Below, in pieces: positions 24,104-47,905 of a stretch of 64,000 nucleotides of DNA. The notes under the pieces were generated by a model. That model saw nothing but the letters and a program-made list of their open reading frames with translations, did no database searches and was not told the DNA's origin. The stretch is from Auricularia sp. M13. Taxonomy: Eukaryota > Basidiomycota > Agaricomycetes > Auriculariales > Auriculariaceae. Made by a program: the position numbers and the translations under genes. Location: NCBI GenBank assembly GCA_037042915.1, contig CM073196.1:2976001-3040000 (forward strand). The letters run 5' to 3'. Each line of letters opens with the position of its first letter. Within the stretch, counting starts at the first letter, position 1.

Positions 24104-24154
24104 GAGAGAGATTCTTCATTTTTAGACAGCGTAAGCAGGCTACAAATACAGAGC
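24104..24154 (-). repeat. LINE 3'-tail fragment
   Basis: About 50 bases (GAGAGATTCTTCATTTTTAG... on the plus strand) match the 3' terminus of the Tad1-like LINE. They sit exactly between broken Gypsy-B and the left terminal inverted repeat of the KDZ element. Confidence 0.75.
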
Positions 24155-24571
24155 CACCCGAGGGTATATACTCCGAAGCCTAATAAGGCCCGATGTACAC
24201 CGGGGGTGTATCAAGCCGTTTCTGGCTCGCGCCCAGTACAATGAATGACCTGCGGATTTTATCCCAATATCCCAATAGCTCTCGGGCCGGGGAAGCTACC
24301 AAGGAGCAGACGTCAGCGAGGCACGTGTTTGGCACCGTCAGGGTGCGGTCCCTGTCGTCCGGCGGGATTGCCCATCGCCGTCATCGCCGGATCAGCGCTC
24401 CTCGCTGCCGCTGACATGTTTGCTCATCGCCGTCCCCGTCGTCGACGACGACCGCGACCGCTGTCCCATCCGTTTGCCAATTAATTTCGAAAAAAATACC
24501 ATTAGGATCGCATAAAGGAGCTCTATTCAATGGTGCCAATGGCAGAGTATGAAAGCGTGCAATAAAGGCAG
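24155..24571 (+). repeat. Left terminal inverted repeat of the KDZ element
   Basis: It starts around ACCCGAGGGTATATACTCCG and runs to GCAATAAAGGCA. From CCGAAGCC (24172) inward it matches the right repeat almost base for base. The outermost ~17 bases are missing from the right copy but recur at 47873-47905, supporting this as the true end. Confidence 0.85.
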
Positions 24572-24654
24572 AACATGAGGAAAGCTTGACAACTGGGCAA
24601 CATATGGGGGAGGGCATGAGAGCATCAACATAGCGGGGGGTAAGAGGACGGTAT

Positions 24655-24775
24655 CTAGTTGTCGGTGGTTGCGCTGTTCAGTCCGAGCGGCTGCCGCCTG
24701 CGCGTGTTCGCGTTGCTGCGCTTCTTGCGAGGCTGGGGCATGACGTTTTCCCCACGGTCGCAGCGTGCCTCAAGC
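24655..24775 (-). pseudogene. Gene Y, last exon (3' of LINE-A)
   Basis: The minus-strand frame LEARCDRGENVMPQPRKKRS... ends at TAG 24655-24657. With LINE-A removed, this segment rejoins the exon ending HAEFYGG at 32314 in frame. The basic run PRKKRS...TRRRQ looks like a nuclear localisation signal, fitting a DNA-associated accessory protein. Confidence 0.7.
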
Positions 24776-25322
24776 GAGAGAGAGAGAGAGAGAGAGAGAA
24801 ATTCTTGAATTTTAGACAGCGTAAGCAGGCTACAAATACAGAGCCAAGACGCTGTGGTCTGTACAAAGTACATTCCAATGGGTCAACATGGGGCAGGCAA
24901 GGGGGGGTCGTAACAGGGGTGTAGAGGGATCTAGTGCAAACTGGTGTGGATTCTGGGTGTAACAAAGTTGTGAGCGCAGTTTTAGGGCATGGGGGTATAG
25001 GGGCATAGGAGCATAGAATAAAATAAAATAAAATAATCAAACATACCATAACTTCATGTGCCTCATCAGCACATGAAGTGACTAGCTCGCCAATAAGCAA
25101 GCAGATGTTAGCAAGTAAGCAGCTGCATGTGGCCCTTTAGGGCCACTGTGGGTGTATCTCTTGAGACACTCAAGAAAAGTATCTTAGAGACTGATAGAGG
25201 GTAGAGGGCAGAGTCTGGATGGGTGGGGATGTAGCCTACAGACAAAAGCACACCGCAACATGGTCAAAGCCATGTGGAGCCACGGCGCAGCTCATGGTCC
25301 TCCCAACCCATTGTATGAATGG

Positions 25323-28300
25323 TTAAGGGTCCTGCGGCAGTGGCTCACCAGTTTTGGTGAACACACCCGACGAGTGAATGAATTTGGCCAAGGCAGAGAT
25401 GCCCTTGCGCGTACTGAGTAGCGCATGCGTCCCAAGCAAGTCAGGCTTGAAGGAGGCAAAGTGGTGATAGTGCTCGTCATGGCGCTCGCAATCTCTAAGG
25501 ATGTGATCGCGTGTCTGCAAGTGGTGTCCACAAGGGCAAGTCACATCTTCAGTGGGAACATGGCGCTGATAGTACTCGCCCATGAACACATGTCCAAGGC
25601 GGCACTGCATGACCAGTCCATAAAGACGGCGAGGCAGCTCACCAAAGTGAGGTGGAGGGCGCCTCTTGGGTGGCCCATAGGCTGCCCTGGCATACAAACC
25701 CCGAGGAGGTGACTCTGCCCACTCCTCTATCCAAGTCTCCATGACACGCTCCTTGGCACGTCTTTTGAGGTGGGACACAGTGGCCCATGAGGGACCTTGC
25801 ATGCGAGCTGCCTCCTTGGCTAACTCATCTGCACGCTCATTGCCCCTTATGCCAATATGGCTGGGGACCCAAGAGATGGTCACCTCATGAGAAGCATCAG
25901 CAGCAAGGAAGTCACGAGCATGCTCGCAGAAAGAAATAGAAAACTGCTGGGCAGAAGCAGGACACTCCTTGACAATGGCCTCAACAGCTGAAGAGTTGTC
26001 AGCAAAGAAGTGAAGGTGGGAGGCCGAGCCCATGGGCAAGTCCATGTAATGGGCAACATGGTCCATGGCAGCAGAGAGTGCATGCATCTCAGCATCATAG
26101 ACCTCAGCCTGGGACCCCATAGGGATGCGACTGCAAGACTGCTCCTGACCCTCCAGGTAGGTCACAAAAGCTGCACCAGTCCTGCGACCAGTTGGAGTGT
26201 CTACAAGGGAACCATCAGTGTAGATCAGCAGGTTTGCAGAACTGAGTTCCAGCATCTGCACAAGTCTGACATGGGACTCTGCAGCATCAGCTTTGCTCAC
26301 ACCCTTTGGCACAGGCCTGAGGTGGATGCGACCTGGAAAAGCTGCAAGCAGAGAAATGGCCCATGGGGCAATGTGGAAGGGCTCAATGCGCTCATTGCCA
26401 GGTGAGGTGAGCTTGGCAAGGTAGCGAAGAGAGGAGCGAGTTTGACCACGCTTGTGAACCACTGGTGGCTTCTCCATTGGAGACTGGTGCCAGGCAGGGT
26501 GCAGGTGCTGCAAGACAGGACTACAAGGCCCCAACTTGTGCAGGCGAGCAGCAGCAAGGTCATCGGCCTTGTCTAGCACCAAATGAATAGGTGGAATGGC
26601 TGCCTCCAACTCCAGAGCATAAATGGGCGAAGTCTTGAAGACAGCACAGATCATGCGCAGACACAAGTTCTGCACACGCATGAGCTTCTCAGCTTGCCAT
26701 GCCCTTTGCATCCACCAAACTGGTGAAGCATAGAGGAGAATGGGGAGAATGCAGGAGATGTACAGCCTGCGCATGTGTCCCTGGTGGAGACCACGCACAG
26801 TGTTGGCCAGCATGCGCAATCCCATGGCTGCCTTGCGCGCCTTGGCACAGGCCTTGTCCACATGGGCGCGATAGGTCAACTTGGGGTCAAAGAAGATTCC
26901 CAGCCAGCGTACAACTGGGAGAGGGCGCAGGCGAGCAACCTGGCCCTGAGCATCAGTGTAGGCCATGGCCAAGTCATCATTGGCAGCAATGTCAGCAAAG
27001 GAGCCATCCTTGCGACGCCAGGTGTGGTGCATCAGCTCGCACTTGTCCAAGTCAGGCTGAAGACCTGCCAGGTTGAACCACTCCCGAATAATGCAGAAGC
27101 AGAAGCGCAGCTCAGCAGTGTTCAGCTCCAGGCTGTCAGAGTGCACAGTGCATCTCCCATCATCCACATAGAGGAATAGGGTGGGTGCCACAAATGTGGG
27201 ATTGAGCTGGCGCATCTCTGCCTCCCGGGCAGCTCGCCTCTTCTGCATGAACTCAATGAGCCCAGTGGAGTAGAATGCAGAGAGAATGCCAGAGACTGGA
27301 GAGCCCTGAGGCACTCCATTCTCAACTGGCTTACAGCTGCTGACTCTACCATCCAGGCAGATGGATGCCTCTCTGTCCTGCAAGAAGGATGCAACCCACT
27401 GCACAATGGGCAGAGGCACACGCTTCTCTCGCAGGACCAGCAGCAGACGCTGGTGGTTGACAAAGTCCAAGTAGCCCTTGATGTCAAAGGTCAGGGAACT
27501 AGTCACCAAACCCTTGTCACAAGCAGTCTGCACATCATGAGTGTAGCACAAAGCAGCATCCACAGTGGAGGACGCAGGCATGGCCCCAAACTGGTTGGGG
27601 TGCACAAGACCCATGGCAGATGCCATGTAGGTCAAGCGCTTTGCCTGAATGCGCTCCAAGACTTTTCCCAAGCAGACAAGCAAGGTAATCAGTCTGTAAG
27701 ACCTTGGATTAGACCAATCAGTCTTGCCAGCTTTCTTGAGCACATATGCAATGGCTCGTCTCCAGCGGCGAGGGTGGTAGCCCCAAAGAGCACAGCGCGC
27801 AACGAGAAGATAGATCTCCTCCTGTGCCACATCCCAAGCCCAGCGCAACCCAGTGTAGGGAACTCCCTCATCACCAGGCGCTTTCTGGGGGTTAGGTTCA
27901 AAGATGCCTTCTCTCACCTCCTCCAGAGTGACCTCCCTGTAGGGAATGTCTTCTGGGTGTGGTGTGGTCAGGTCTGGCTCGTCCAGGCCCTCTATGTGAG
28001 GAGGGCGCTGGTACAAGGTCTCATGCAGTGCATCACACTTCTCAGCATGAGTGCGTGCAAAGGTACCATCTGGGTGACGAATATCAGGAGAACGGTACCC
28101 CCGACGTCCCTGGGACCACTTGCGCATGTCCCAGATGTCATCCACAGTAGCATCCTCCACTACCTTGTTCCAGTAGTCACGCTTGGTGCGCTTTACCTGG
28201 CGACGATGGTAGTTGCGCTCCCTGGCTGCAGTTGCAGTCAGGACTGCATTGGAGCGGCGCATGCGCCTTACAAAGTCCTGTGCAGCTCTCCCTGCATCTC

Positions 28301-29346
28301 GCATCTTCTGCAAGCTCTGGGTGAGTGCAGGAGTCCACCAGGGCTGCGAGTGCTTAGATGGTCTCCTCTTGGGCACCTTGGCCTGAGTGGCACCATTGAG
28401 AGCGTCATGGAGTGCTGCTGCAGTGCGCTCTAAGAGCCCAGTGTTGCGAGTGTGCTTGGGAGCACTTTGCAGCTCTGCAAACACTGCTGCATGGCCATCC
28501 AGGCGAGAGCGAAACTCTGCCTTGAACTCGGCCTCATCTGCATGCTTGAAGTTGTAGCTGGCTCCAGAACCAAGGTCCACATCCTCAGCACCCAGGTCAA
28601 AGACCCAGGAGACAGTGTGATGGTCAGAGAAGTCATGGACCTTGTCTGACACCGCAAAGTCTTGCAGCAGACCAAGTGCAGCCATTTGGTCATTCTGCCA
28701 GACCAAGTCCAGAACAGAGGACTGAGAGTGGTTGTCCTTGCGCCAAGTGGCCACATCAGGACTGTTGAGCACAGAGAACCCATGCTCCTCCATCCACTCC
28801 AGCATCTGCTCCTCGAGAGGAGTTGGCCGTCAACAAGTCCCACACATGGTGGTGTTCATTTGCATCCATGGCAATGGCAATTGGCATGTCTGGAAGGTCA
28901 ATGAGCTTGAAGTGCGCAAAAGTGCGGCCAAGTCGCTCAGCCCCCTCAGGAGCGTCCTCATTGTACATGAGGACAAGTAAGAACGCTGGGCGCCTCCCTT
29001 GACGAATCTCAAGAATGAGAAAGTCAAGATCTTGGGCAAGGTCATAGCGGTTAAATACTTCAAAGTCACGTCGCGTCGCAGACGCATAGGCAAAGACACG
29101 TGGCCTCTCAAGAGCAGGCACTACTTGAACTGGCAGGATGGGATACATGCCTGCTGGTTCCTTGACAGAGTAGTGTGGCTCGTCTGGTTCATCACCAACG
29201 CTCCACCACGGTTCAGTGACCAGATAAATATCAGATGCAAGAGGGGTCCCATAATGGGAGCCAGGAGTGAAGAGTGCAGACTGCGAGTCATTGAGACGTC
29301 GCACATTGGTCATGGAGACACGAATGGGGCGAGTGGTGTCTCTCAT
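25323..29346 (-). pseudogene. LINE-A ORF2: endonuclease, reverse transcriptase, RNase H (one frameshift)
   Basis: The first part (29346-28756) is an AP-type endonuclease N-terminus: NVRRLNDSQS, then MDANEHHHVWD. A one-base deletion near 28815 (in AACTCC/CTCGAGGAG) shifts the frame. The remainder (28805-25323, 1,160 codons) is open. It holds the endonuclease end (VLDLVW, SDHHTVSW), RT with NGVPQGSPVSGILS and an intact LFLYVDDGR, a Cys/His region, and RNase H (LLIYTDGSLVD, DAEMHAL, FADNSS). A gag-knuckle-like CPCGHHLQTRDHILRDC ends the protein. Endonuclease nicking plus RT drives target-primed insertion. Restoring one base would open the whole frame, so this looks recently dead or a sequencing error. 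Confidence 0.92.
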
Positions 29347-32205
29347 GCAGACTCAGTGTCAGGCGCAGGTGTGCTGGGCTTGTCACGAGTGCTGCTTGCA
29401 GTTGCTGCAGCCTTGGCCGCGGCGTCTGCCTCTGAGCGAGAGTTGGTCCTCAGAGGGATGGCATTGCTGCCAGAAACATTGGCCTTGGGGCCAAGTGCAA
29501 CTCTGCTCTTGGTGCGGCGCAGCTTGGGCGCAGTTGCAGCCTTGGGTGCATCATGTCTGGGCTTGCGCAGCGCCATGCGACGCTGCTGCCAGATCTTGCA
29601 CTGGGAGTCGCGCACAACATGTGCCCCACCACAGTGAGGGCACTTGAGCTGAGTGTGCTCGCAGTGAGTTCCAGGTGCATGTGCAGAGCTGTAGAACTCG
29701 CACTCCATCTGCTCGCAAGTGTGGTTGGCAGTGGTGTGGGTGCTGGCACTGCAGACTCCACAGCGCATGGGCTTGTCGCAAATGCGAGCAGTGTGGTCAA
29801 GGCTGCAACACCTGTCACAGGTGCGCAGACGAGGCGTGTCCTCAAAGTAGCGAACTGAGCAGAGGCGTCCAAAGACACTAACTGCATGCTCAACTGCATA
29901 GCGAGCGTCTGCCTCACTCAGGAATGCCAGAATGACAGAGCCTGAGCTCTTGCCAGCAAGGTCTGCTGCACTTCCCAGCCAGCGTGGCATGGTGGCCCAG
30001 TCAAACTTGTGAGTGTTGAACTCAACAATGTCTGAGAGGAGGTCTTGCCCAGTGGGCAGTCCCTCAATGTCATGAACTCGAGTCGAGACACCATTGACTA
30101 GCACTTGGTGCCAAGGCTCGTCGCGAGACGCCTTGATGAATGAGCCAGAGTCTGGCACAATGGCAGACGCAATTGCATCTCCATGTTCAACCAGATCTGC
30201 TGAAGTCAGTCCATCTGCTGCAACCACCACAATGTTGCCAGAGGCGGTGGTGTCCACACTTGTGACACGAAGTGGGAGCTTGGCAGGCGACTTGCTCTTG
30301 TGAGGAGCAAGCGCATTGTTCACTGCAGCGCGCAAGCGGCTCGCATTGTTGCGCACATGAGCAGTCAGCTCAGGGGTGGCACGGACGCTCAGAATGAGAC
30401 GACCTGGGTGGTGGCGTGCACGACCATTGGTAGGAGGTGGCTTTGGCGCCGCACTGGGACGGGCAGGCACCACACTGCCTTTGGCAGCTGGCTGAGCAGC
30501 ACGTGACGCATAGGAGCGGCCAGGTGCGCTTGCCTTTGCAGGAGCGGCTGTAGGAGCTGCTGCTTCTGCAGGCTGCTGCTGTTGGGCACTTAAAGGCGCA
30601 GAGGCCTGTTGGGCAGTGAGGAAGGCAATGTTGCGCCTGACCTCGGCCATATCCGAGACAAGGGTGTCAAGGAGTGTGGGCTGTGGGCAGGACAAGTACC
30701 CAAAGTGTTGCTCTGCTTCGCCTGCAGCTGCCGAAGAGCACATGACTCTGGCAAGCTCAGTGACGCGCTCTGCTGTCCACAGATCTGCCCAGCGCCAGTA
30801 CTGGTCTTCCTGGTTCCAGACAGCCGCATTGACTGCAGTGGCACGCGCAATGAGATGCTGCAGGTCAGACCTGATGTCATTGACTGCCTCCTCAAGTGGT
30901 GTGCCGTCTGGCAGACAGCCCAAGTTGGCTGGCACATTCTGTGCCCTCCAGTCCTGAACTGAGTGCACAGACTGCATGTCCTCGTCACCACAGACTGACA
31001 TAGTCTCCCCTTGGGGGATTGAGGTGCTAGGGCGAGCATAGGGCAACTTTGTTGCAGCAGAAGACAACTTGGTTGCCTGTGGTTCACCTGGGGCAGAACT
31101 GCCCCAGTTATGCGCCGATTGAGGCTCTCCAGGAGCTGAGTCGACACCCCAGTCATTTCTGACCGAGGGGGCGCGATCTGAGCCGCTGCCATGTGCAGCG
31201 ACTCGAGGAGCGCGTCCAGAAGCGGTGGGAACGAGGCCCTGCATTCTGGATGCTCCCTCAGCCTGTTCTGGTGAGCTAGTGGCTCGATATGCGGCGCCCT
31301 GCTGGAGGACGAGCCCACCCACCTTTCCTGACGCCCCCAGCCGGTCATCGATACCAATGCCCGTTGAACGAGCCGGAATTGTGCCCAGGGCATCCACCCC
31401 AGAGCGCACAGCAGATGTTGTGAGTGCAGCAGGCTCGTCCCCAGTGTGCAGTGCACTAAGGTGGCGAGGAGCAGACACTGTGGGCCGCATTGAAGCGGTA
31501 GGAGCGTGTTCTGAGCGGTTTGGAGTCAGTACAGCCAGCTGCTGCACACCAGAGTGTGCATCTCGAGTTGGGGAGGCTGGAGGGGACTGCTGGGCTCCTC
31601 CTGCGCGTTCCGGCGCTTCCTGGAGGCGGTACCGGTCCGCTCCGGCCGGAGCCGATGGGGCCACGTCACCCTCGCGCAAAAACGAGCCTGGGACATGCAC
31701 AGAGTGCGCTCTGGTGCCAGGAATGGTGTGGAATGCAGGAGGGGATGTGGGAGATGTGTGTGCGTGAAAATCGAGTCCAGAAACGAAGGGGTCGTCCCCA
31801 GGGGCTGCAAAGCGAGCCTCCTGGTTCGTCTCGACACCAGGATGCAAAGAACGAAAGGAGGAGCGTCTATAACGCTTTGGAACTGGCTGGGGCGCACCTC
31901 TGAGTCTAGGAGGGCTGTCAGACCGCTTCCTAGTGAGCTGCCTGCTCTGCTGCTCGTCTCTGGTGCTCCTGCTGCTCCTGGGGCTGAACTGCGCCTTAAC
32001 GAGGTCTTTGGCCTTGCCAAGCCACCCAAAACGCGAGGGGGAGTGCGCAGGACCGGTATCTTGCTCCATGGAAGCGAGGGAAGGAGAAGGGGAGTGGTGG
32101 TGCGCTCTAGGAGTCCCAGTTTTGTCTGGAACTCGCTCCTGCGATTTCTCGCGATCCACCGGCCCAGGAGGGTCGCGCCCGGGCTCGATAGACTCCTGGT
32201 GGGTC
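29343..32205 (-). CDS. LINE-A ORF1 (nucleic-acid-binding, zinc knuckles)
   Basis: The open frame runs from 32360, but MASSWTHQES (ATG at about 32219) is the first Met conserved in the second copy (47531-47868) and is the likelier start. The N-terminal ~450 residues are Pro/Ser/Gly-rich and disordered. An alpha-helical region (VNDIRSDLQHLIARA...), an Ala/Pro-rich linker, and an RRM-like core follow. The C-terminus has several Cys-His knuckles: CDRCCSLDHTARIC, CGVCSASTHTTANHTC and CPHCGGAHVVRDSQC. The product should bind the element RNA. Its TGA overlaps the ORF2 ATG in the sequence ATGA. Confidence 0.9.
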
Positions 32206-32313
32206 CAGGAAGATGCCATGATCGTTAGATCGAAGAGGCGGATGAAGGGGCGCGCTGGAAAAGCGAGAATTGCTCCACTGACTCGGACTTGGTGGAAGTC
32301 GGAGTTCAAGAAG

Positions 32314-33343
32314 TCCCCCGTAGAACTCGGCGTGGTGGTTCTTGAGTGCGTTGTACTCATGGAAAACCGGGCGCGAGTCGCCGATCTTTTCTGCTGCGAG
32401 GATCAGGGCACAGTAAAGGGCGGGCAGCGGGGAAGAACTTACCCCACATTTTCTGGAGCAGCTCGCATGCTTTGGCCTTGAGGGCCTTGGGATCGTCGCT
32501 CTCCACGCCGTCCTGCTCGACAGTGCCCGAGCGGCCGACAGACCAGTCGTCAAAAGCAACGGCCAGTTCGTTTGGCATACAGTTGAGCTTCTGCCGTGTG
32601 AAGCCCTCAACACCGTTTGATATGAAAATCTTCCCGCCGCCGTATGCGCTGCTGTTGCGGTTTGCGACGATGAGCAGGTAATTCACGTTGCAGCAATTTG
32701 CGACCGCCGCCAACTGTTGCCATTGTCAGCGCGTCATATGCAACTGAACATAATCCCACGCACCTCAACACCGATGTTGTCCATTGTCTTGTCCAAGTCG
32801 GTGGCCTGAGCCTTGGCACTGTGGTGCACCACATTGGCCTTGTCCCAGCGGTATTTCTTGAGCTTTTCCACAAGGGCCTCAGTTTGAGCACTTGTGAGTG
32901 CGTCAAATTCAGCCTTGATCTCTGGATCGCGCGTCATAGCGGGAATCTTGCCGCGACCAGTGACTGAGAAATAATGAGATACATAAAGAGAAAGTGAGAA
33001 AGCAGCACTGCTCACCTTTGGTGTAAGTCTTTGAGCGATCGTGGATAAATGCATTGAAAGAGCTGATCTGGTTCTTTCCCTTGCGAGTCAGGCCCACGCG
33101 GTTGAACTTCTTGCGAGCCCATTCATAACGACTGCCTTGCGTCAGAGCAACTACAGCCTATGGTCACACGCCATGGTCCGTAGCAAAGTCCTGGATCTCA
33201 GACTCCTGTCTTTTCGAGAGGTCCTCGATGGCGTCCGCAATGCGCTGCTTGCGCTCCTTCAGGACTTTCTTCTGCGCATACGTGAGCGGCGCCCGCTTGG
33301 TGTAAGGGCGCTGGAAGAGGGTACGCGTGCCAGTGCGTGCCAT
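32314..33343 (-). pseudogene. Gene Y, 5' exons (KDZ accessory gene split by LINE-A)
   Basis: Starting at ATG about 33343 (MARTGTRTLFQRPYTKRAPL), four short introns can be read: about 33136-33170, 32967-33017, 32717-32766 and 32397-32438. They link exons encoding a basic helical N-terminus, SRYEWARKKFNRVGLTRKG, SSFNAFIHDRSKTY, an acidic helix (EIKAEFDALTSAQTEALVEKL), then CCNVNYLLIVANRN and FDDWSVG. The exon ends HAEFYGG at LINE-A and the frame resumes at 24775. I do not recognise the family, but exon order and motif spacing parallel gene Y2 at 56831-61800. It lies on the same strand as the transposase, inside the TIRs. Confidence 0.65.
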
Positions 33344-33602
33344 GACTGCGCAGCGAGGGAGGGCGTAGCGACGAGAAAAAAAGCAACTACCGTCGGATCA
33401 CAACACACAGCCGTTGTATTCCGTAGCACTACCCGAGCAAAGCAGAACTAGAAAGCAAAGGCAAAGGGAGAGCAAGAACAACGGGGGAGAGCAGCGGACT
33501 GGTCATGTGCAATGAGCGGGGGGGAGGGGACGAGGGGCGAGGAGATGAGCGGGAAGACGAGCGAGAGGGAGGTTGATGGGAGGCGGGCAACCGGGGACTA
33601 CT

Positions 33603-35176
33603 CTAGACTGGCCAATCCATCTTGGCAGCATAAATGACCGCGGCACAGTGCACGCAAGCCGCGGTCTCGACAGACAAGCCATACGAGGTCTTGAGCAGGT
33701 GCCACCAATCCGACTCAGGGTGGTGGCTTGGGTCCACGCTTCGCAGCATGCACATGATCGCGCTGTGCGTGTCTGCGGGCACGTTGTCCTAACCTCCCTG
33801 AAGGGTGGTGGACCCCCGTAACGCGCAACCCATGCCTGGCGCTGCCTCATGCGTTCGTTAGCCTTGACGAGAAGCGCCTGCGTTTCTTGGCCAAGCACCG
33901 CGGTTTCGGGGCGCGCGATGTAGCGCCAGGGCTGGATCCTGTTGACAATCGACAGCGCCGGGGCATCCTGCGCGATGTGGAGCACATGGCGGGCGCGCGG
34001 AAAGAACGTCGCCGCGTGCGGCGCCGCGATCCTGTGGTTGATGACCTCGCGAATAACAGCCATAGGTGTGACGTAGCCGCTGGACCCCGGGCACGACAGG
34101 TAACGGGGGTGGTTGAAGCGGACGACCGTGTGCACACCGGGCACAATCGCGCGCCCTGTGTGACCCGGCGGGACTTCTGGGTCGACCTGCGCCACGATGG
34201 TGATCGTGTCCGTGACGCGGTCCACGAGGCAGGCCTTGTAGATGTCAGTACTGAATACAAAATGCATAAATGAATGTTCGGCTTACCAAGTCCTCGATTA
34301 ACTGGAACACCACATGGCGGAAATCGTGTCGCTGGTCGGTATGCGTCCAGAATTCATTGTGCACCAGGCCTGGCCTATCGAGCATGTCCTGACCATCCTG
34401 GCGAGTCGAAAGTGCCCACTCCAGAATGCGGATCGCGCCTTCCTTGGTCCTCGAGTTCGTGAGCATGCTGGCCTTGAACCGCCGAGCATGAGCAGGCGTG
34501 GGAGCTTGCATCGGGGCAGGCGCTGGGGTGGCTGCACGGGGGGGCTGTGCGAGAGCTGCGCTTGAGGTCTGGGGCGCGCTGGGAGCTGGAATGCCGCCTG
34601 CGTTGGGCGCCGACGGGATGGCCGTGTTGTTCTTGAGCGGTGCTGCACGTACAACAGCACGAGCAGGACCAAAGACGTCCTCTTGGTCCTCCTGATCGTC
34701 TCTGACCGCGCCTGCACCTGGAGCGTACTCTTGCAGTTCCTAATCGAAGTCAGACTGAGTAATAAAAGGTGCTGCTGATAACTCACCTGGACTCGCGCAT
34801 CCTGGTCAGACGAACACATCTGCAGCACCTGCATCATCTGTGGAATGGTTGACAAGAGATCCGAGATGTTGGGCTGTCCGCGTGAACGAGTCGGACTGGT
34901 TGGCGGCGAGAGAGCGGGGGTGCGAGGAGTCTGAGAGCCCGAGCGACTTGATCCAGAACCAAGGTGAAAATGGATATGGACCTGCTGCTGCTGCTGCTGG
35001 CCATCCTCGACGCGCATGACGCTTTCCTGGGCCTGATGGTGCGCGAGTCGGCGGGGCGTGCGAGGTGGTCCTTGAGAATGCCCGCTCGAGGTCAGCGGCG
35101 GCCCAGGGTCCTCGTCCTCCTGCTCTGGGAGACCCCTGCCAGCGGAGGTGTAGCCGGGAGGGAGTGGGTGGCGCAT
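33603..35176 (-). CDS. Gene X: KDZ-element accessory protein, unknown function
   Basis: ATG 35176 (MRHPLPPGYTSAGRG). Exon 1 (34787-35176) is Pro/Gln-rich with a polyQ stretch and ISDLLSTIPQMMQVLQM. Intron 34740-34786. Exon 2 (34287-34739) is acidic then Ala/Pro-rich, ending RRFKASMLTNSRTKEG...QLIEDL. Intron about 34235-34286. Exon 3 is a compact, probably folded domain: VDRVTDTITIVAQVDPEV, YVTPMAVIREVINHR, IQPWRYIARP. One more splice or frameshift near 33790 leads to SAIMCMLRSVDPSHHPESDW and a TAG at 33603. About 470 residues. No family recognised, so I assign no function. Intact-looking apart from the last junction. Confidence 0.6.
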
Positions 35177-35887
35177 TTTTGGTGTGCGCGCAGGCGGGGA
35201 GATGGTGCAGGTACGAGAAAGAGAGCAATTGCTGCCGTGTCGGTTCGACGCGATGCTGTCTTATGCATTCTGCTCTTCATTTCCCAATCCTCCCCTGCTA
35301 TATCGAGCACCAGGGAACTGTTTTGTACTAGTATAAGATTTATTCTCTGAAGTATGAGCACAGATAATCAAGAATTGGTGGAGATATGCTTGAAATACGA
35401 GCTGAAGCAGCTTGGAACAGACCTCTCTGCAGCATATTGTCGTCGATGATAAGGAATAGAAAGCACCGTTCACCTCGTAACTTGCACAGGCAAGTTATAT
35501 AGTATACTACATTGTCACACGCGAGTACGAACGCAATCCCCCCAGAACTGCACTCTGTGTGAGGTGATTCAGGACAGACAGTGTTGTTTTGTTACGAGTT
35601 CACCGACCACCATACTGGTCCATTCTCTAACTGCCTACACCCGAATGTCTCAAAACCACCTGAGACCCTTACATATAGTCTCTAAGATATAATTCCAGGC
35701 AGCCATTCGTTTATAAATTTCCTGTAGGACACATTGAAGGCACTTGAATGCAGTTTCGGGCTCTCAGTTCAACGGTCTAAGGCTTCCATACTTTGGTACT
35801 TTGAAGCAATGCACTGATTTCGACTTGGGAAGCATAGTTCATATTCCAAAGATACTCAAGCTACACCTGCGAGCTCCAAGGCCGCAT
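35177..35887. other. Spacer between transposase 3' end and gene X
   Basis: About 700 bases, AT-richer than the flanking exons. No ORF with recognisable content. It presumably holds the 3' end of the transposase transcript and the promoter of gene X. The string TATAAGATTTAT at 35332 is a possible TATA box about 150 bases upstream of the X start. Confidence 0.4.
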
Positions 35888-38137
35888 TTACATGGCACCA
35901 TTGTCCTCATACGACTCAAAGGCTTCGAACCGTTCCGCTGCGTCAAGGAGAGCCTCGTCGTCCGTCCCATCATCATCGTCTTCCATCGAAGCAGCGTGGA
36001 ACGCCTCGTGCGCGTGCATATCGCGTGGCTGCGGGCGGAACAAAGGGCCAACTTGATGGATTCGGGTGCCCGGTCCAGGTGTGCCGGTGAAGCCCTTCGA
36101 TAACTCGAGCCTTTGAAGGCGCACGCGGTGAAGATGGTTGACCTGAGCGTGACGACGAGCAAGGGCTTGAAGCTCTACCGCAAGGGGAGAGCCATCCTGG
36201 GTGGCTTGTTCGACAGCGGCGGCGAGCTGCACGTCCTCGTCGTCGATCCATGTGCGGAGTCAGCGCGCCTCGACGTTACAGCGCGTAAGCTCTTCCCGGG
36301 CGCGCTGCAGCTTGAAATATTGTGTCATAAACGTGCGGTTGGCAACGTTGGCCCAGGGCCTGCCTGCAACGTCGTGCCGAGACATGCGGAGAAGACTGAA
36401 GTCGGAGAGTTCAGTCCATTGGACGACTGTCTCCCATGATAACTGCTCCGCCGCCGGATTGAGCTCTCTGGCAGCTTCGTTGAATTTCGCCAGTGCTGTA
36501 CGGATCGCCTTGGAGCGGGTTTGAAGTGCCTTCGCGATCTGCTGTCGAAGTTTGTAGCCTGAAAAACATGTCAATACCGACCAACCAAAATGTGAACAGA
36601 GGCTTACATATGTCTGACATGTTGGCCTTCATGAGCTCAAAGAGCCGCTCCGCTGCACAACGAGACATTCCAGGTGGTCGAGTGCAAGGCAAACCTTTCG
36701 TTCGCGGATATACACCAGCGTGTCGATCCATATTCCTTACTGGTCGGTAGCCAGCATTGCGCAGGATTGATCTTGCTCTCGTACACGCGCACGTCCCTCT
36801 CGGCCAGCTCCAGATCTCGCACCGCGTCCGCGCGCGCGCGCTCGCGCCTCGCGAGCTGACGCTCGTACGCGGCAACGTTGCCCGTTGTGTACATTTCCGG
36901 CGTCAGGTTCGCGAATTGCGTGTCATGCGTGTCGAACTTGGATCTGCGCAATAGTGTATCTGTCAGTACGTGTGATAGGCAGTAGCTAGGTGTGACGTAC
37001 CGCTTGTCCGCAAGTTTCATGAGAGCCTCAACGTACCGGATAGCAAGAAGATCACCGGCGGGCTCGTGCTTGAGGGCCTCCAGGTACTCGAGCTCCTCCG
37101 TTCTCCACCTCTCAAAATCCTCAGCCCCAAACCCGAGCACGGCGGCCGCGTTCATGGAGGCGTTGCCCTCAGCGATGATCTGCAGGGCCTGCGCGTGGTT
37201 CTTGACGATGAATCGTGCGAGCTCTGCGTACTTCTTGTTGTCCCAATGGTGAAAATGCATGTCAATAAATTGCCGGTAGTGATAGTGCGAGCCAAAGCGT
37301 ATCGTGCGCGCAACGTCGTTCGATTCAGAGAATACGCGCTCGCACGTTTCGAAGTCTTCGAGGCCGACACCGGGCGTATAGATCGGGTGATAGCGCAGCT
37401 GGCAGAGGCGGTTATGCGCGTGCCCGTGAAATGTGTTGACGACGGGATTGAATCCCATATCCTGCACCTGCGGGCCGAGCGTGCTCTTGCTCAGCGTCAC
37501 GGCGAATCCACACCTGATGTCGTAGCCCGCGCGTTGAGCGCCTGGAGCCACCTGCATCATGTGCGACAACAGCGCGAGGCTGTACTTCGCCCTGTTGGAC
37601 GTTAGCTTTCATTTGGGCAATACGAACGGGCTCATGACGCACAGTTCTCCGCTACGTATCATTTCCTGCAGCTTGAGAGTTAGGCCGTGGCGGCAGACAC
37701 CCAGGAAGATGCCTGTCTGCTCGAAAAAATCGAGGGCCACCTTCATGTGCTCGGGCTGCATGTTCTTCCAATTATCCTGGCACGGCGGCGGATCCAGCGC
37801 GCTGTCGCCCGTGTCGCCAGGTTCGGCGCCAGTGACGTGTCTGCGACCCTTAGGATGCGCGGATTGCTTCTTGACTTCGTCCTTGAACTGGTCGGCCGTG
37901 TCGAGGAAGTAGTCGCTGTCGAAGCAGCGAGTATCCGCCGAACCCGCGGCCGCATGTTGTTTCAACGACCCGTTACCGTCCATTGCCCAGAGTCTTGATA
38001 CAAGAAGCTCTGGCTCAGCTGTGAGCTGCAAGAAACAGTTAGCATTGGTTGGCACACTTATAGGCAGCGTACTGTGTAGTTGCACGGTGGACAGGCATTC
38101 AGCACGCGCCAGTCGGCGCCGTCGCGCCCAAGAAATA
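35888..38137 (-). pseudogene. KDZ transposase, catalytic and C-terminal part
   Basis: Downstream of the Ngaro-like insertion the reading resumes with FLGRDGADWRVLNACPPC (cysteine-cluster end). After a short intron (about 38021-38068), LLVSRLWAMDGNGSLKQ and FDSDYFLDTADQFKDEV open the catalytic core. QTGIFLGVCRHG, then YDIRCGF, NTFHGHAHNRLCQLRYHP, GVGLEDFETCERVFSESN and HFHHWDNKKYAEL are hallmark KDZ blocks. Further introns are seen near 37592-37645 and 36955-37010. The C-terminal helices include YKLRQQIAKALQTRSKAI and end in an acidic tail at 35888. The catalytic D/E residues are present. DNA cut-and-paste enzyme, nuclear; non-functional only because of the insertion. Confidence 0.93.
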
Positions 38138-38262
38138 AATGAAGTGTCTCGGTCGAAGAGACACGAGACACGCGTTTTGGGCCAAAGGAGCGGACTTGGA
38201 AAGCCGAAGCCTTCCTGTCCGCTCCGACCACCTCAGCGAAGCGGAGACATCTCCATCTCGCA
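38138..38262 (+). repeat. Split direct repeat A1
   Basis: Begins TGAAGTGTCTCGGTCGAAG and is identical to A2 at 43698-43822 until CATCTCGCA. A short hairpin (GTGTCTCGGTCGAAGAGACAC) lies at the outer end. Confidence 0.93.
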
Positions 38263-38457
38263 GCTTCCCTGGGTGTTTCTTGCTTGTGGGCTACCCAGGT
38301 CTTCTTTCCCTCGAGGTTGTCCTGGCTCTCGCTACGAACACGCGTCAAACGGCTCGTCGCTGCTGCCCCTATCGCCACACCAGACTGCGCGCGCTCCGAC
38401 GCGACTCTGCCCTTGCCGCGCACCTATCGAAGAAACTGCCCTCGCTTGTGACTTGCT

Positions 38458-40577
38458 ATGCCGCCGAGACGTGCGCCCGCCCCCAGCGAGGACGACGATG
38501 CTCAGGAGGAGGGCCAACAGGGGGTCCCCGACGCGCCCGTCCCACCTGTTCGCGTGCCGGTCCCGCGCAAGCGCGTCGTTCCCTTGCCCACCGACCGCGA
38601 GACCAGAAACCAGTCGCGTCGCAGGCAGGACGAGGAGGACGATTCGTCGCCTACCAGGCCGCCGGCGAGACGCTCCAACCCCGAGAAGTTGGCCGAGATC
38701 GTGGCACGGAGCTCTGCGGCGGCCGCGGCGAGGACTGCCGCTGCAACTGCAGCTGCCGCCAAGAAGCGCAAGGAGGCGAAGGCGGCTCACGAGCACGAGC
38801 GCCAGGAGCGCGAGCGCGAGCATGGGCGTCGCGGCTTGGACTTCCTGGTTGACGACGACCAGGACGACGACGGCGAGGAGGAAGAGCCTCTGGTGCCTCC
38901 GGGAGACGTCGACATCGATGACGACGTCGATGACGACGACGACGTCGACGCACGCCGGCGGCAGCCGTCGGACGAGGACTTCTTCAACCAGCCCACCGGA
39001 CGCCAGACAGACTTCGCCCGTCGCCTGCAACGATCCGTGCCGTCTCCCGCTCGTCGCGGCAGAGCTAACGTCCGCATCGTGTCGCCCAGCTTGGGTCCTA
39101 TCGACGAGGACGACGACGACGCGCCGCCTGCTCAGCGCGCGCTAGGCCGGGCTTTGGGAGGCGCGCGTCCGCGCCGCCGCGCAACAGGAGCAGTGCCTTC
39201 TCGCGGCCGCTGAGGCCTAATTCCGTCCCCGACGACGCTCAGCCCACTGAGCCTGAGCTGCCGCTGCAGGATGAGGACTACGAGGACGACTTGCCGCTTC
39301 ACCAGCGCGGGTATCTCTCGGATGAGGGCACCCCTGGACGCGTCACCGGTACGTTCAATTTCGGTGCTTGCATGGCAGCACGAGGCACGCATGGCGGCCG
39401 TTTTTCGAGCGCGTACGCTTGGCGGCGCTGCTCAGAGCACGCATGGCGGCTCGTCCGGACTACGCTTAGCGGGTCTGGGTTGCCTCTTGCGCACGCTTGG
39501 CGGCGCGAGGCGTGGATCCATGCTGTGCGTGGATCCTGGATCGCCGGATCGCTGGTCTGCAATCTGCAGATCAGTCGATCGCCACGCGGCCTCCGTGCTG
39601 CCGTGCTTGCTTGAAGATGCGTGCATGTGCTCACTGGCGCTGCAGGTAGACGTCAGCGCCGCTCGCCTGCGTCCGTGTCGCCCGAGCACAAGAAGGCGCG
39701 CTTCGATCGCTTCGTCGAGGGCAGGACCGTGGAGGCCACGCAAGCGATCATCACGAACGCGGCGGCGAAGATCATTCGCGCGGGCCTCTCATCGTACCTA
39801 CCGCTGCATTACCTGTCGGACGAGGTCTTCGATCAGGAGGAGAATGCGCGCGTCGTCGTCGTTGGGGATCCTGATGCGGCCAAGCCGCCCGTCGTCACCG
39901 TCGTTGAGCGCGAGGCTACGTACGATCTGTGGTGCCAGTGGTCGGACCGCTTGCTCGCCGCACTCTCGGCGCTGCGCGTTCCCTTGGGCCTTTACAGGAT
40001 GGTCTCGCGCCATTTCAAGATCGTGCGCAACAGCAGGCACCTGCGCCAGTCCTGGTCCGTTTGGCGGGCTTATGACATCGCGATGCGCAAGAAGCTCGTG
40101 CTCGCGAAACCACCTGACATCGGCATCTTCGACGAGACGACCTTCAAGATCGTCGACCGCGAGGACTTCGAAGCGCTCCGTCGCGCCGCGTTCGAGCTCA
40201 ATGCGCGCGCAGAGAAGATGCTCAGCGGCAAGACCAGGCCGTCCGCGAGCTCGGCCGCCGTCGCGAAGAGACCTACCGCCGCGCCGACGAAGAAGGCCGA
40301 CGTGTACGAGCGCTGCTTGCTGTGCGGCTCATGGGCTCACGTATTCTCCAAGGAGAAGGGCACGCGACAGGACTGCAAGATCAGCCCCGTATGGCTTGAC
40401 TGGGACGCCGTCGCGCGCGTCTTCAAGATCCCTGGCACCGACGCTGTCGTTTGCTGGGCGTTCAACAGTAAAGGCGGCTGCTCTAAGCCCGCTTGTCGTC
40501 TCGCCAGCAAGGGCCACCGCTGCTCGCTCTGCGGCGACTCCAAGCATGGCTGTCACGGTTGCTCCAAGGTCTCCTGA
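38458..40577 (+). pseudogene. Ngaro-like gag ORF (frameshift and intron)
   Basis: ATG 38458 opens a disordered, highly charged N-terminus (PPRRAPAPSEDDD, polyalanine, Asp runs) to 39213. The acidic sequence then continues in another frame (NSVPDDAQPTEPELPLQDED), implying a one-base frameshift around 39130-39190. A probable intron of ~295 bases (GTACGTTC at about 39350 to CTGCAG at about 39645) leads to EHKKARFDRFVEGRTVEAT. A Cys/His-rich C-terminus follows (CLLCGSWAH, CWAFNSKGGCSKPAC, CSLCGDSKHGCHGC), ending at 40577. The zinc-binding end is typical of Gag-like proteins in these fungal elements. Confidence 0.72.
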
Positions 40578-42438
40578 TCGCGCTATTGCTACGACTACTC
40601 CTGCTCTCGTTCGCTGCCGCTCCGTTTCTCCAATTGCTGCGCGCTCCCTAGACGTTCCCATGCTGCATTCGGTTTCCCCAGCGTTGTTAACGCCCGTTTC
40701 TGCGCGCATCGCGCCACCTGTGTCTTTGTTCGCTGCTTCTGCTATAGACTTGCCCGTGCCTGCTTCTCCAATGACTCCAGACGTTCCTTCCCTGTGCCGC
40801 ATCGTGACGACGTTCATTCCGGACGTTTGGGAGGAGGAGCTCCGTCTCGCCGGCCTTCTTGAGCGTTTTGCGGCCATTCCTGTCGGTATGCGAGAAGGTT
40901 TCGATGTTGGCCTGCCAAGGAATGTTATCGATGAGTTCTTCGCGCGCACTGGCGTCCGCTACAAGATTTACAGAAACCACAACTCGGCTGAGAATCATCC
41001 CGTTGTCATCGACAGCATGATCGCCGACGAGACTGCCGCTGGGAGATTCTCTGACTTTTTCGAACCGGACGAGTTGTTCGAACGAGTGGGCCACTTCCGT
41101 AACGCCCCGCTCACTATTGCGCCGAAGGACGGGTCGTATGACGCGGGTCGTGTTTGCCAGGACTTCTCTCATCCCAGGAACGACCCCGGCGATGTGTCCT
41201 TCAATGCCTCTATCGACCGCGACGCGTTCACGTGCGATTGGGGAACGTTCTCTCAGTGCTATATTTTGGCTGCGAACGCTCCGGTCGGAGCGCAGGTGGC
41301 GGTTTTCGATGTCAAATCAGCTCACCGTCGCGTTCCCATCGTGCCCTGGCAGCAGCCGTTCTACGTCGTGATGTGGCGCGGCAAAGTGGCTCTAGACTTC
41401 TGCTGTCAGTTCGGTGCTGCGTCGTCATCCGGTCTGTGGGGTGCCATCGCCGATGCTTTCAGGTCGATTTTCGCGTTTCGCTTTCCTTCGTCGGACGCTC
41501 TGAATTGGGCCGACGACTTCACCTTCTGGCGCTATCTCAATGGCATGGGCAGCTTTGACGTCTGTGAAGCCGACATTTATGCTCTCGCCGATCGCTTGGG
41601 TTGGCCGTGGAGCGTTAAGAAGACACGGCCTTTCTCTCACCGCTTTCCGTACCTGGGTTTTGACTGGGACCTGCAGCTGCGCACGGTCGAGGTTACGGAC
41701 GCAAAGAAAACAAAGTATCTGACCGCTATTGCGTCTTGGCTACCGGGAGCGTATGTCACGAAGCGCGAGGCTCAGTCTGTGCTTGGGAAACTGGTCCATT
41801 GCACCATGGCGGTTCCCGAAGGACGCTCGCGGCTGCCGGCTATTTCGAAGTTCACGGCTGGGTTCACGACCTCGAACGCGTTTGTGAAACACAAGATTGC
41901 GTCAACCGTGCTCGACGACATTGCTTGGTGGCGCGGCATGCTCAGCAGCACTTTCTGCGGTTCGAAGATTGTCGCTGTCTCCGACCCGGTCGCGCTCGAC
42001 GTGTACGTGGATGCATCCTCCGCCTTTGGTATTGGCCTCGTCATTGGGAACGAGTGGGACTATTGGAGATTTGCGCCCGGATGGAAGGCGGAGGGGCGTG
42101 ACATCGGCTGGGGTGAAATGGTGGCGTTGGAGTTCGGCTTGCGAGCTCTGGTCGAGAGAGGCTTTCGCAACGCTCACATCCGCATTCGCAGTGACAATAC
42201 CGGCGTAGTCGGTGCCTTCGACGCGGGCAAATCGCGGAGCTCACAGACGAATAAGGTGCTGCAACGCCTCGTGACGTGGATGATATCCCACGGGCTGTGG
42301 TTGTCATTGCAGTGGGTCGCTTCCGCGGACAACCTGGCCGATGGCCCGTCGCGAGGTGTCGGGATTTTGGGCATGAACAGGCGTGTGCACGGTTTCCGCA
42401 TTCCGTTTGCTGTCAAGGACCTTGTATTGCGCGTTTGA
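40578..42438 (+). CDS. Ngaro-like reverse transcriptase-RNase H
   Basis: The frame is open from 39271, but coding character starts near 40600, overlapping or following gag in another frame. RT blocks: RVCQDFSHPRNDPGD, then QVAVFDVKSAHRRVPI (first Asp), FGAASSSGLWG, and the active site NWADDFTFWR. WADD in place of YxDD fits this clade, to my knowledge. RNase H: YVDASSAFGIG, GEMVALEFGLRAL, SDNTGVVGAFD and ASADNLADGPSRG, so all four acidic residues are present. The protein copies element RNA into circular DNA for the recombinase. No internal stops are seen. Confidence 0.9.
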
Positions 42439-42539
42439 ATAGATTCCGCGACGCCTGAGATCGGTGATCGCGATTTGCGGATTGTCAGATCTGCGATCAC
42501 GGCTTGAATTAGAGTGCGCCACGTCACTCGTGGCTCTTG

Positions 42540-43546
42540 CTCTTGACCGTGATGCTCCCAAATCGTGTATGGCGCCGCACGATGCGGGTGCACGACTCTG
42601 CGCTGGCGGACTCCACAACGTCAAACTACGCCCGCGCTGTCGAGAGATTTCGCTCGTGGGCTGCTGCAGAGCGCGTCCCACGCTCGTCTTGGTTTCCGAC
42701 GCCTGAACCAGTCGCTGCGCGTATGCCGCGTCGTTTGCCGGCTTCTTCTCAGCGGGAGCGGTGCGCACGGCTATGGCTGCGCTTCGTTTCTATCATGAGC
42801 GTCGCGGTTGGCCTTGGCTTTCGTCGGCGAGGCTGCAGCGTATCATCAAAGCCGTCGATGCTCACGCGCCTGCGTCGGCGACCCGATCTCAACGCCCGCC
42901 GGTCACGCTTGCGATGCTGGACGAGGCCTTATTGCGCTTGAATCTGAACCGGGGATTCGATCTGTGCGTCGCTACCGCAATGCTCGTCTGTTTCTGGGGC
43001 CAAATGCGTCTTGGCGAGGCATTGTCGTCCACTCGAAGATACGACCACTGCCGCATGCCGGCTGTGAAACACGTCACGCTCTGTTCGGAGGCTGGCGGTC
43101 CCAACGAGACGTCCTGCTTGTGGCTTCCTGCAGACGAAAACTGCGAAAAAGGCGATCATGTCTGGCTTGCGCGCCATCATAACGATCCCTCGTTCGCTCT
43201 GCAGCATCACTTCGCCGGCAACCGTTTGCAACCCGACGATCCTTTGTTCTCATATCGCGTCGACAAGTCGGACGAGCTGCGGTGCTTGACAAAGGCTGCC
43301 TTTCTTTCTAGGCTTAACGAGATCTGGCGCGCGGCCGGGATGCAGGAGGTGACGGGCCACTGTTTTCGTATTGGTGGAACTACGGCCTTGCTACGAGCGG
43401 GAGTCCCGCCGGACGTTGTCAAGACTGCCGGTCGATGGAAGTCTGATTCGTTCTTGCGGTATTGGAGAAGCGTAGATGTCATTATCTCCAGTCATGTGGA
43501 CCTGTGCGACTTGTATTGGTCCGGGCCAAATAAGGCTCGTTTCTAA
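42540..43546 (+). pseudogene. Ngaro-like tyrosine recombinase (one frameshift)
   Basis: The N-terminal core-binding region (DSALADSTTSNYARAVERF) reads in one frame to about 42715. AYAASFAGFFSAGAVRTAM then continues in another, so a single frameshift or unrecognised splice is present. The catalytic boxes are intact in the second frame: Arg in QMRLGEAL, HCFRIGG (HxxR) and Tyr in GRWKSDSFLRYWR. It ends at the TAA near 43546, about 50 bases before repeat B1. The enzyme would integrate the circular cDNA. Confidence 0.88.
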
Positions 43547-43595
43547 TCAATTATGTTTGCGTGTTTGGGCTTCTCCCTTCGGTTGGTTTCGGGGT

Positions 43596-43983
43596 TTTGG
43601 GTTCCAACCTCATTCTCACTATGTCTGTCTCACAAAGGGATCGACACGCCCACACTCTATCTAGAACTCTCGCCATCAGAGCGGAAGAAGGGCCCAAAAT
43701 GAAGTGTCTCGGTCGAAGAGACACGAGACACGCGTTTTGGGCCAAAGGAGCGGACTTGGAAAGCCGAAGCCTTCCTGTCCGCTCCGACCACCTCAGCGAA
43801 GCGGAGACATCTCCATCTCGCACCCACCGTCCCATCCCTTCAAAGTCTTCTTTGTTGTCTTTTGTTCTAGAGTCGTGAGTTTGGGTTCCAACCTCATTCT
43901 CACTATGTCTGTCTCACAAAGGGATCGACACGCCCACACTCTATCTAGAACTCTCGCCATCAGAGCGGAAGAAGGGCCCAAAA
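43596..43983 (+). repeat. Split direct repeats B1-A2-B2
   Basis: B1 43596-43699 (TTTGGGTTCCAACCTC...GGGCCCAAAA), A2 43698-43822 and B2 43880-43983, with a 57-base spacer between A2 and B2. B2 ends directly at the resumed transposase coding sequence. Confidence 0.93.
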
Positions 43984-44972
43984 TTGATGCGGCGGTCGAT
44001 CTTGCGACGCATCATGAGATACACGTCGAATGCGTCTGTGAGCTGTCGCCGAAGTTCGGGCCGGTATGGGACCTCGGCGATGGCTGCGAGGGCGCACGCG
44101 AAGGGCTGAAAGCCCAGGCGAGGGTGGTGTGCTGGAAGCTGCCGGTACAGCTCGAGCATGCGCATGCTGACGCCCAGAGCAGGCTGGAGCGGCGTGCAGG
44201 GCATGAATCCGTATCGTAGCAGCATGAGCACTGCATCCTCGTTCGCATCCGCGCGAACGAATAATTGCTCGCGAGGGCAGTCTATTATACTGTCAGAATA
44301 AGTCCAAATCTCCACAGGGGATCTAGACGCACCGAAAATATTCATGACTTCAATTGCAAAGCAGGTGCTGTTGCCGTTCGGCTCAGTGGTGTCGAGCTCA
44401 AGCCCTGCCGTTGTGCGCCACTTCCAGTCGAGATAAATGTCGACCATCTGCGGCATGAGGTCCTTCCAGGCTGTATGGTGCATGGCCGCGCGCTCCTGAC
44501 GCGTACGATAGCTGGATGTCATACGGTAATATCTACAAGATGTGAGTATCAGCCATGGATCCCGAACGGCATCCACTTACTTTTTGGCACGCGCCAAACG
44601 TACTACAGGGGTCTCGTCCTTGGCCACAGTCTCCCACGAGTCGTCGTCTGCAAGCCCCATGCCCTCGTTGTCGTGGTCAAGCAGGTCGTCGTCGCGGTCT
44701 TCAAAGCCGTGCGGCACATTTGGCAATTCTTCTCCTTGCAACGCAGCCCGTTCAGAAGCTGAGGGCATTACTGTAGAAGAAAGCATTAGTATAGTCCACA
44801 TCTGCAAGGTGTATGATATTTACCATGTCAGATTCGTCGTTCTTCATGCAATATTAACTGGCGTCGGGTGCCGCTAACAGCAGTAGAGACACGGCCGGTC
44901 TGGGACACAACCTGCACCATTCTACGCTTCTTGGGTGCGTTGCTGGTCTGCTGGAAGGTCGTGCGGCGCATT
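43984..44972 (-). pseudogene. KDZ transposase, N-terminal CxC part
   Basis: ATG 44972 (MRRTTFQQTSNAPKKRRM) is followed by a short intron (to about 44806) and the acidic exon SERAALQGEELPNVPHGFEDRDD. After another intron (about 44527-44578) comes SYRTRQERAAMHHTAWKDL and YLDWKWRTTAGLELDTTE. The CxC-type region follows: TYSDSIIDCPREQLFVR, RYGFMPCTPLQPALGVSMRML, then FDVYLMMRRKIDRRIN at the Ngaro junction. Such cysteine-cluster N-termini are characteristic of basidiomycete KDZ transposases and probably bind DNA or chromatin. The start lies 80 bases inside the right TIR. Confidence 0.88.
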
Positions 44973-45051
44973 GTGAACCGCGCTGCACCGACGGCAAAGC
45001 AGCGGTGCGGGTGCAGAAGACTGAGTTCAACAACTCCAACCAGCTGACGAT

Positions 45052-45446
45052 ATGCCTTTATTGCACGCTTTCATACTCTGCCATTGGCACCATTGAATAG
45101 AGCTCATTTATGCGATCCTAATGGTATTTTTTTTCGAAATTAATTGGCAAACGGACGGGACAGCAGTCGCGGTCGTCGTCGACGACGGGGACGGCGATGA
45201 GCAAACATGTCAGCGGCAGCGAGGAGCGCTGATCCGGCGATGACGGCGATGGGCAATCCCGCCGGACGACAGGGACCGCACCCTGACGGTGCCAAACACG
45301 TGCCTCGCTGACGTCTGCTCCTTGGTAGCTTCCCCGGCCCGAGAGCTATTGGGATATTGGGATAAAATCCGCAGGTCATTCATTGTACTGGGCGCGAGCC
45401 AGAAACGGCTTGATACACCCCCCGTGTACATCGGGCCTTATTAGGC
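45052..45446 (-). repeat. Right terminal inverted repeat of the KDZ element
   Basis: Inverted counterpart of 24175-24571, differing at only a few bases (for example GGGGGGT for CGGGGGT). It ends at CCTTATTAGGCTTCGG, where a LINE tail begins, so the outermost ~17 bases seen in the left repeat are missing. It probably holds the transposase promoter. Confidence 0.87.
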
Positions 45447-47868: not shown

Positions 47869-47905
47869 CTCTTATTAGGCTTCGGAGTATATACCCTCGG
47901 GTGTA
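47869..47905 (-). repeat. Isolated terminal fragment of the KDZ TIR
   Basis: About 33 bases (ACCCGAGGGTATATACTCCG and on to CCTAATAAG on the minus strand) match the outer end of the left KDZ TIR. They are sandwiched between LINE-A 5' sequence and the LINE-B 3' UTR, showing a further copy of the KDZ family once stood here. Confidence 0.7.

Follow-up and report, generated by a model that had tools for sequence, protein, structure and literature searches.

Background

Many eukaryotic cut-and-paste transposons are viewed as single-transposase systems. Among the described relatives closest to the element considered here are KDZ1, KDZ2 and KDZ3 of Cryptococcus neoformans, active elements of 9-11 kb. 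Their inverted repeats measure 241, 139 and 169 bp and their target duplications 8 bp (KDZ2/3: 4-8 bp), and their transposase has KDZ and CxC1 domains (PMC12810828). Here we examine 64,000 nucleotides of Auricularia sp. M13 (contig CM073196.1, called C4 below, 2976001-3040000; hereafter the window), in which nested retroelements interrupt a dead, multi-gene KDZ DNA transposon with long terminal inverted repeats. From the sequence itself, multi-exon genes with short introns and the presence of KDZ, LINE and Ngaro elements also suggest a fungus, probably a mushroom-forming basidiomycete. In our judgement this KDZ element probably entered a LINE-A retrotransposon by cut and paste and encodes, in addition to its transposase, two transposition partners, the products of genes that we call X and Y.

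The window element resembles KDZ1-3 in being a DNA transposon with long inverted repeats, an 8-bp duplication and a KDZ transposase, and differs from them in that they are active in a yeast, that its repeats are longer, and that the CxC1 match of two of its relatives stays below cut-off (PMC12810828). It has what marks the KDZ superfamily, namely a KDZ catalytic domain and defined termini with a target site duplication. Its 8-bp duplication and clear terminal inverted repeats are traits of the Zisupton group, whereas its CA..TG termini are reported for Kyakuja, a comparison made by description and not by phylogeny (PMC12730594). With the TET/JBP-bearing Kyakuja elements of Agaricomycetes it shares these termini and a multi-gene fungal KDZ organization; unlike them, it and its four relatives described below contain none of the TET/JBP matches listed for the genome. 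The traits reported for Kyakuja-1/2_LB, 7-bp duplications and no inverted repeats, are absent from the window element, which has an 8-bp duplication and inverted repeats of 416 bp (PMC12730594). Accessory genes are described as frequent in fungal KDZ elements (PMC12477816). Both KDZ elements with long repeats, 8-bp duplications and CxC1 transposases and the presence of accessory genes in fungal KDZ elements are thus already known, and it is the strict pairing of X with Y that seems worth following.

Ends of the window element

The element starts with CACCCGAGGG and ends with the reverse complement of CACCCGAGGG, giving CA..TG termini, and is flanked by a perfect 8-bp duplication, TACAGAGC. Subtraction of its three inserts leaves ~7.9 kb. 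Its ends and insertions, in window coordinates, are as follows.

24147-24154, no strand: target site duplication, left copy, 8 bp, TACAGAGC
24155-47903, minus strand: whole KDZ element, 23,749 bp with its three retroelement inserts counted in, and with the same terminus at both ends and a target duplication
24155-24570, plus strand: left terminal inverted repeat, 416 bp, of which positions 17-416 match the right repeat
24776-32313, minus strand: LINE-A retrotransposon inserted into gene Y, with matches to RVT_1 (E 2e-20) and to RNase_H (E 9.3e-12)
38137-43984, plus strand: Ngaro-like retroelement inside the KDZ gene; its split direct repeats are 38137-38262/43697-43822 and 43589-43700/43873-43984
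45053-45453, minus strand: inner part of the right terminal inverted repeat, corresponding to positions 17-416
45454-47870, no strand: second LINE-A insertion, rearranged and partly inverted, inside the right repeat
47871-47903, minus strand: outermost 33 bp of the right terminal inverted repeat, positions 1-33, split off by the LINE-A insertion
47904-47911, no strand: target site duplication, right copy, 8 bp, TACAGAGC

The two repeats are 98.75% identical over 401 aligned columns (24171-24570 against 45053-45453). At the latter position the right repeat lacks its outermost 16 bases, which stand, together with 17 duplicated bases, at 47871-47903 and there show 100% identity to positions 1-33 of the left repeat. 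Because these outer 33 bp sit beyond the second LINE-A insertion, the right end of the element is 47903. An earlier sequence-only reading of the locus had placed that end at 45446, having overlooked the second LINE-A copy and its 17-bp target duplication (CTTATTAGGCTTCGGAG, 45437-45453/47871-47887). It had correctly recognized the near-identical inverted repeats, to which it gave ~395 instead of 416 bp, and two nested retroelements, which are real: the LINE-A copy carries reverse transcriptase and RNase H domains, and the other has split direct repeats of the Ngaro type. In this Ngaro-like element a tyrosine recombinase match falls below cut-off, and its long open reading frame found nothing in Pfam.

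A 35-base core motif of the repeat, with up to three mismatches allowed, has 12 matches in the 52-Mb genome (11 exact, one with 1 mismatch), which make up five inverted pairs and leave two ends single; the reversed-pattern control gave 0, which excludes a chance origin of the repeats. When the flanks are joined across the element, LINE-A 3' sequence is restored. The genome contains 81 copies of this site in uninterrupted, 32-base form, three of which lie in the window, against 0 in the reversed control; the pre-insertion site was therefore an older LINE-A copy.

Related elements in the genome

Queries made from the window exons of X and Y, run against the whole genome (52.1 Mb in 14 contigs) at a cut-off of E<=0.001, gave five matches each, at the same five loci. 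tblastn with the open frames of the window element (>=25 aa) located the three genes, in unchanged order and on one strand, at C3 3658-3666 kb, C4 2924-2934 kb, C7 571-579 kb and C6 1151-1180 kb. Each of the five KDZ-X-Y copies lies between inverted repeats of its own, ~99% alike within a copy and, for the window against C3 or C4, ~68% alike between copies; their length is about 350-416 bp, and 1,490 bp in one copy. The full lengths of the C3 and C7 copies, 8,051 and 8,163 bp, agree with the three-gene system of about 7.9 kb that the sequence-only reading had proposed with X and Y as element genes. The layout that it expected to recur, KDZ, X and Y between terminal inverted repeats with a fixed target duplication, is present in this genome in five elements, the duplication being 8 bp. 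That X and Y belong to the KDZ element, as parts of a three-gene system of ~8 kb, is well supported.

We checked the target duplication in ten two-ended copies, a set to which neither C1 1615 kb, a two-ended candidate, nor four single ends belong. A perfect 8-bp duplication adjoins the CACCC ends in 8/10 (window, C3 3658 kb, C7, C6, C3 2182 kb, C3 980 kb, C9 2518 kb and C2 4930 kb), and is missing there from two, C3 811 kb, where none was seen, and C4. In the C4 copy, one 1.1-kb sequence stands in inverted orientation outside each of the inner ends; the larger structure so formed likewise starts with CACC at its outer ends and has an 8-bp duplication there, GGCTGTGA. This copy (C4:2923622-2934880) is bounded by inverted repeats of 1,490 bp with 99.6% identity, in which the usual inner ends are followed outwards by the 1.1-kb sequence and its new ends, CACCTCAGG; apparently the repeats became longer and acquired other termini. 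Its last X exon is, moreover, flanked by inverted arms of ~480 bp, 92% alike and with TTAGG-like runs (at 6743-7200 and 7941-8422 in the joined sequence), which may represent a small element inserted twice.

More diverged queries, taken from the C7 copy, add three X-Y pairs, at C6 1690 kb, C1 4215 kb and C8 3394 kb. Y of the C8 pair matches the C7 query at E 0.25 only, but is evident from the C8 sequence itself, and the C8 X and Y used as queries in turn reach C6 1690 kb and C1 4215 kb at E 3e-9 to 2e-11. At every one of the eight X loci Y lies downstream of X, on the same strand and within ~2 kb. A KDZ gene of the same type is found upstream and on the same strand 14 kb from the C1 pair and 30 kb from the C6 1690 kb pair. 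At C3 3530 kb there is a weak match to the Y tail only (E 0.0014), 5 kb downstream of a same-strand KDZ gene. An X match at C1:9301 kb (E 0.21) and a Y match at C11:80 kb (E 1.4) were dropped as chance.

A KDZ profile search of the genome listed 149 matches (150/163 candidates scored), in which a single gene is often represented by several exons. Thirty KDZ loci were fetched, and 18 of these share a long C-terminal part with the window-type transposase; X and Y are close by at five of the 18 and plausibly linked at three. For Tet_JBP, where counts are lower bounds, 19 matches were listed, four over cut-off and none in the five elements. One of them (C6:1702977-1703381) has a long-type KDZ gene (1722 kb) on one side and the diverged X-Y pair at 1690 kb on the other, all on the same strand, and could be part of one large element or be there by chance.

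The repeat ends are shared by elements of ~2.7 kb at C3 2182 kb, C3 980 kb, C9 2518 kb, C3 811 kb and C2 4930 kb, inside which none of the listed genome matches to KDZ, X or Y falls. In the pieces compared, the C9 element is 98.6-98.9% identical to that at C3 811 kb and 86-93% identical to that on C2; from the former value, at least two of the ~2.7-kb elements moved recently. The sequence-only reading had named repeats around unrelated sequence as evidence that would speak against it. Such elements without KDZ, X or Y do exist, but they look like ordinary non-autonomous derivatives.

Genes of the window copy and their damage

Gene models were predicted from the DNA by spliced alignment. All three genes lie on the minus strand and, read on that strand, follow in the order KDZ transposase, X, Y.

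43986-44971, minus strand: KDZ transposase gene, 5' part, from the start codon to the Ngaro-like insertion (spliced alignment to C3; tblastn 57-60%)
35912-38132, minus strand: 3' part of the KDZ transposase gene, containing the catalytic core (Pfam KDZ matches 37240-37596 and 37630-37998)
33603-35176, minus strand: gene X, 3-4 exons, 5' end tentative, exons kept in all five elements
32314-33343, minus strand: gene Y, exons 1-4 with the beginning of exon 5, interrupted there by LINE-A, exons kept in all five elements
24655-24777, minus strand: gene Y, terminal part of the last exon up to the stop codon (located by tblastn with the Y tails of the C3 and C4 copies)

Three same-strand genes between the repeats, the outer ones 80-83 bases from them, had been read correctly from the letters of the window: the KDZ start codon lies near 44971 and the Y stop codon near 24655, each ~80 bp inside its repeat. 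The identification of the transposase holds as well, the window exons exceeding the cut-off of Pfam KDZ (PF18758) and the C3 and C7 relatives matching that family at E 3.1e-70 and 4.4e-72. CxC1 (PF18802) scores 22.2 bits in C3 and 16.6 in C7, both below the cut-off of 26.9. In the C3 models KDZ has 7 exons (8 in C4), X 3 and Y 5.

What did not survive is the description of the element as complete and of X and Y as intact. The KDZ gene is cut by the Ngaro-like element and contains two frameshifts (~36.65-36.73 kb) and one in-frame stop (36260-36262). Gene X has a frameshift near 33790, with bases lost. Gene Y is cut by LINE-A, and ~45 codons of its last exon are without significant match anywhere in the window (tblastn); the LINE-A insertion was therefore accompanied by a deletion. 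With all three genes broken, the window copy is a dead element, unable to work alone. A conserved programmed frameshift in X was considered and rejected, as C4, C6 and C7 stay in one frame at this region, where C3 has an independent one-base indel and the window an indel of its own.

Selection on the three genes

Between the C3 and C4 copies, in codon alignments built on C3 as reference, the ratio of nonsynonymous to synonymous divergence (dN/dS) is 0.09 for KDZ (967 codons), 0.18 for X (474) and 0.12 for Y (386), at dS of 0.61, 0.50 and 0.58, respectively. All three genes are thus constrained at similar dS, and X and Y therefore evolve with the transposase and share one history with it. Between C6 and C7 the values are 0.09 for KDZ, 0.36 for X and 0.16 for Y, at dS of 1.14-1.34; where dS exceeds 1 (C6-C7, C3-C7 and every comparison with the window) it is saturated and the ratios are indicative only. 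dN/dS was below 1 in all pairs computed.

What X and Y may encode

The best Pfam match of Y is DUF5817_CT (E 4.5e-5, 23.7 bits), below the cut-off of 29. AlphaFold2 models of single window exons, made without alignment, were unusable, with a mean predicted local distance difference test score (pLDDT) of 39.4 for X (147 aa) and 45.0 for Y (90 aa). Y is basic (isoelectric point 9.4-9.8 in four rows), and hhalign placed its conserved region NAFNAFLH...FDALTDAEK on the HMG box core, though at a very low probability, given below; as a control, X against the same HMG boxes aligned one column. Y found no match to Pfam HMG at E<=1, and in the open-licence literature on KDZ elements HMG was met only within a cited title. 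Y may, on these sequence comparisons, be a distant HMG-like protein.

Additional proteins encoded beside fungal KDZ transposases, including one with a divergent HMG domain, were reportedly described by Iyer et al. in PNAS in 2014. Y may be that divergent HMG protein. The earlier statement that X and Y belong to no known family stands for Pfam above cut-off and for PDB, but may not hold with regard to the KDZ-linked proteins reported in 2014.

Distribution of LINE-A

The LINE-A insertion in the right repeat has its 3' piece in one orientation and the next piece reversed, the pattern expected from twin priming. LINE-A copies span 18278-47868 of the window. The exact LINE-A 3' motif, with 81 occurrences in the genome, falls 79 times into 14 clusters of ~10-63 kb each on 12 contigs, one per contig except for C2 and C3 with two each. 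This distribution looks like that of a centromere-restricted LINE, in which case the window would lie in the putative centromere of C4. Centromere-restricted non-LTR elements have been reported in Agaricus bisporus (PMC7473861).

Mechanism and alternative explanations

We take X and Y to be, probably, element-encoded partners that help transposition. The KDZ transposase would bind the repeats at their conserved outer ~75 bp and catalyse excision and insertion. Y, plausibly a basic, HMG-like DNA-binding protein, might aid the assembly of the ends, and X would act as a further partner. The ~2.7-kb non-autonomous elements, which have the same ends, could have been moved in trans.

Several observations weigh against this interpretation. 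The profile searches gave X and Y no family above cut-off in Pfam and nothing at E<=1 among PDB profiles. When Y was compared with five HMG boxes, hhalign returned a probability of only 0.4% at E 0.17, although the alignment covered the region where it would be expected. For the C3 models of X and Y no homolog was found at E<=0.001 among 7,997 scored candidates each, in a database with apparently few or no fungi, so that this empty search says little about their distribution. The C6 copy shows only the 3' part of KDZ within the 20 kb read, the C8 X-Y pair has no KDZ within ~7 kb upstream (9 kb examined), and no X or Y match lies near 10/18 long-type KDZ loci, among them C2 2829 kb, C11 2505 kb, C9 693 kb and C3 3730 kb, as judged from genome queries only, the downstream DNA not having been read. 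The other copies are damaged too: there are frameshifts in C3 X and C4 KDZ, frameshifts are flagged in C6 Y and C7 Y, some perhaps through model error, and a stop flagged in C7 X lies in a poorly aligned start and is perhaps model error as well. Finally, X evolves faster than KDZ and Y, its dN/dS rising to 0.36 between C6 and C7 and to 0.48 between C3 and C7, two pairs in which dS is saturated.

The faster evolution of X would also suit the alternative that fares best, in which X and Y are anti-silencing or host-interaction cargo, the role proposed for TET/JBP dioxygenases in other fungal KDZ elements. TET/JBP proteins occur in many such elements and are proposed removers of silencing marks (PMC12730594), and with 0/19 of the listed Tet_JBP matches inside the five elements another protein could fill that role. 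Yet neither Pfam nor PDB revealed an enzymatic or chromatin domain in X or Y, and dN/dS below 1 in every pair gives no sign of positive selection on whole genes; we regard such a cargo as possible but doubtful.

Fungal DNA transposons do capture genes (PMC12730594), and X and Y might accordingly be host genes caught by chance and without a role in the element, a view to which the C8 pair and its missing KDZ neighbour lend some colour. That pair, however, resembles a disrupted remnant, because LINE-A pieces separate X from Y and occur again ~1.2 kb upstream of X. Chance capture is further contradicted by a KDZ-X-Y order and strand identical in two diverged subfamilies, by the dS that X and Y share with KDZ at C3-C4 ratios of 0.09-0.18, and by the lack of any X without Y at eight X loci, and is in our view improbable.

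That the repeats are those of an unrelated element within which the KDZ genes are nested, as the ~2.7-kb elements with the same ends but without the three genes might suggest, we count as already refuted by the five KDZ-X-Y copies, each between its own matched repeats.

If X and Y are transposition partners, a further step would be a KDZ lineage with a three-component machine, in which the transposase and the obligatory, hitherto uncharacterised partners X and Y form a cassette maintained across diverged subfamilies and serving non-autonomous elements in trans. This extension is speculative, and we would not expect it to hold in full.

Conclusions

Despite deep divergence, X and Y have remained with the KDZ transposase, and purifying selection acts on them, so that their role can be put to the test. 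Fungi harbour active KDZ elements, and epigenetic genes can be carried by such elements; which partner proteins they require therefore bears on the movement of these large elements. With its low copy number and the clear ends of its elements, this Auricularia genome can be used as a reference for the family.

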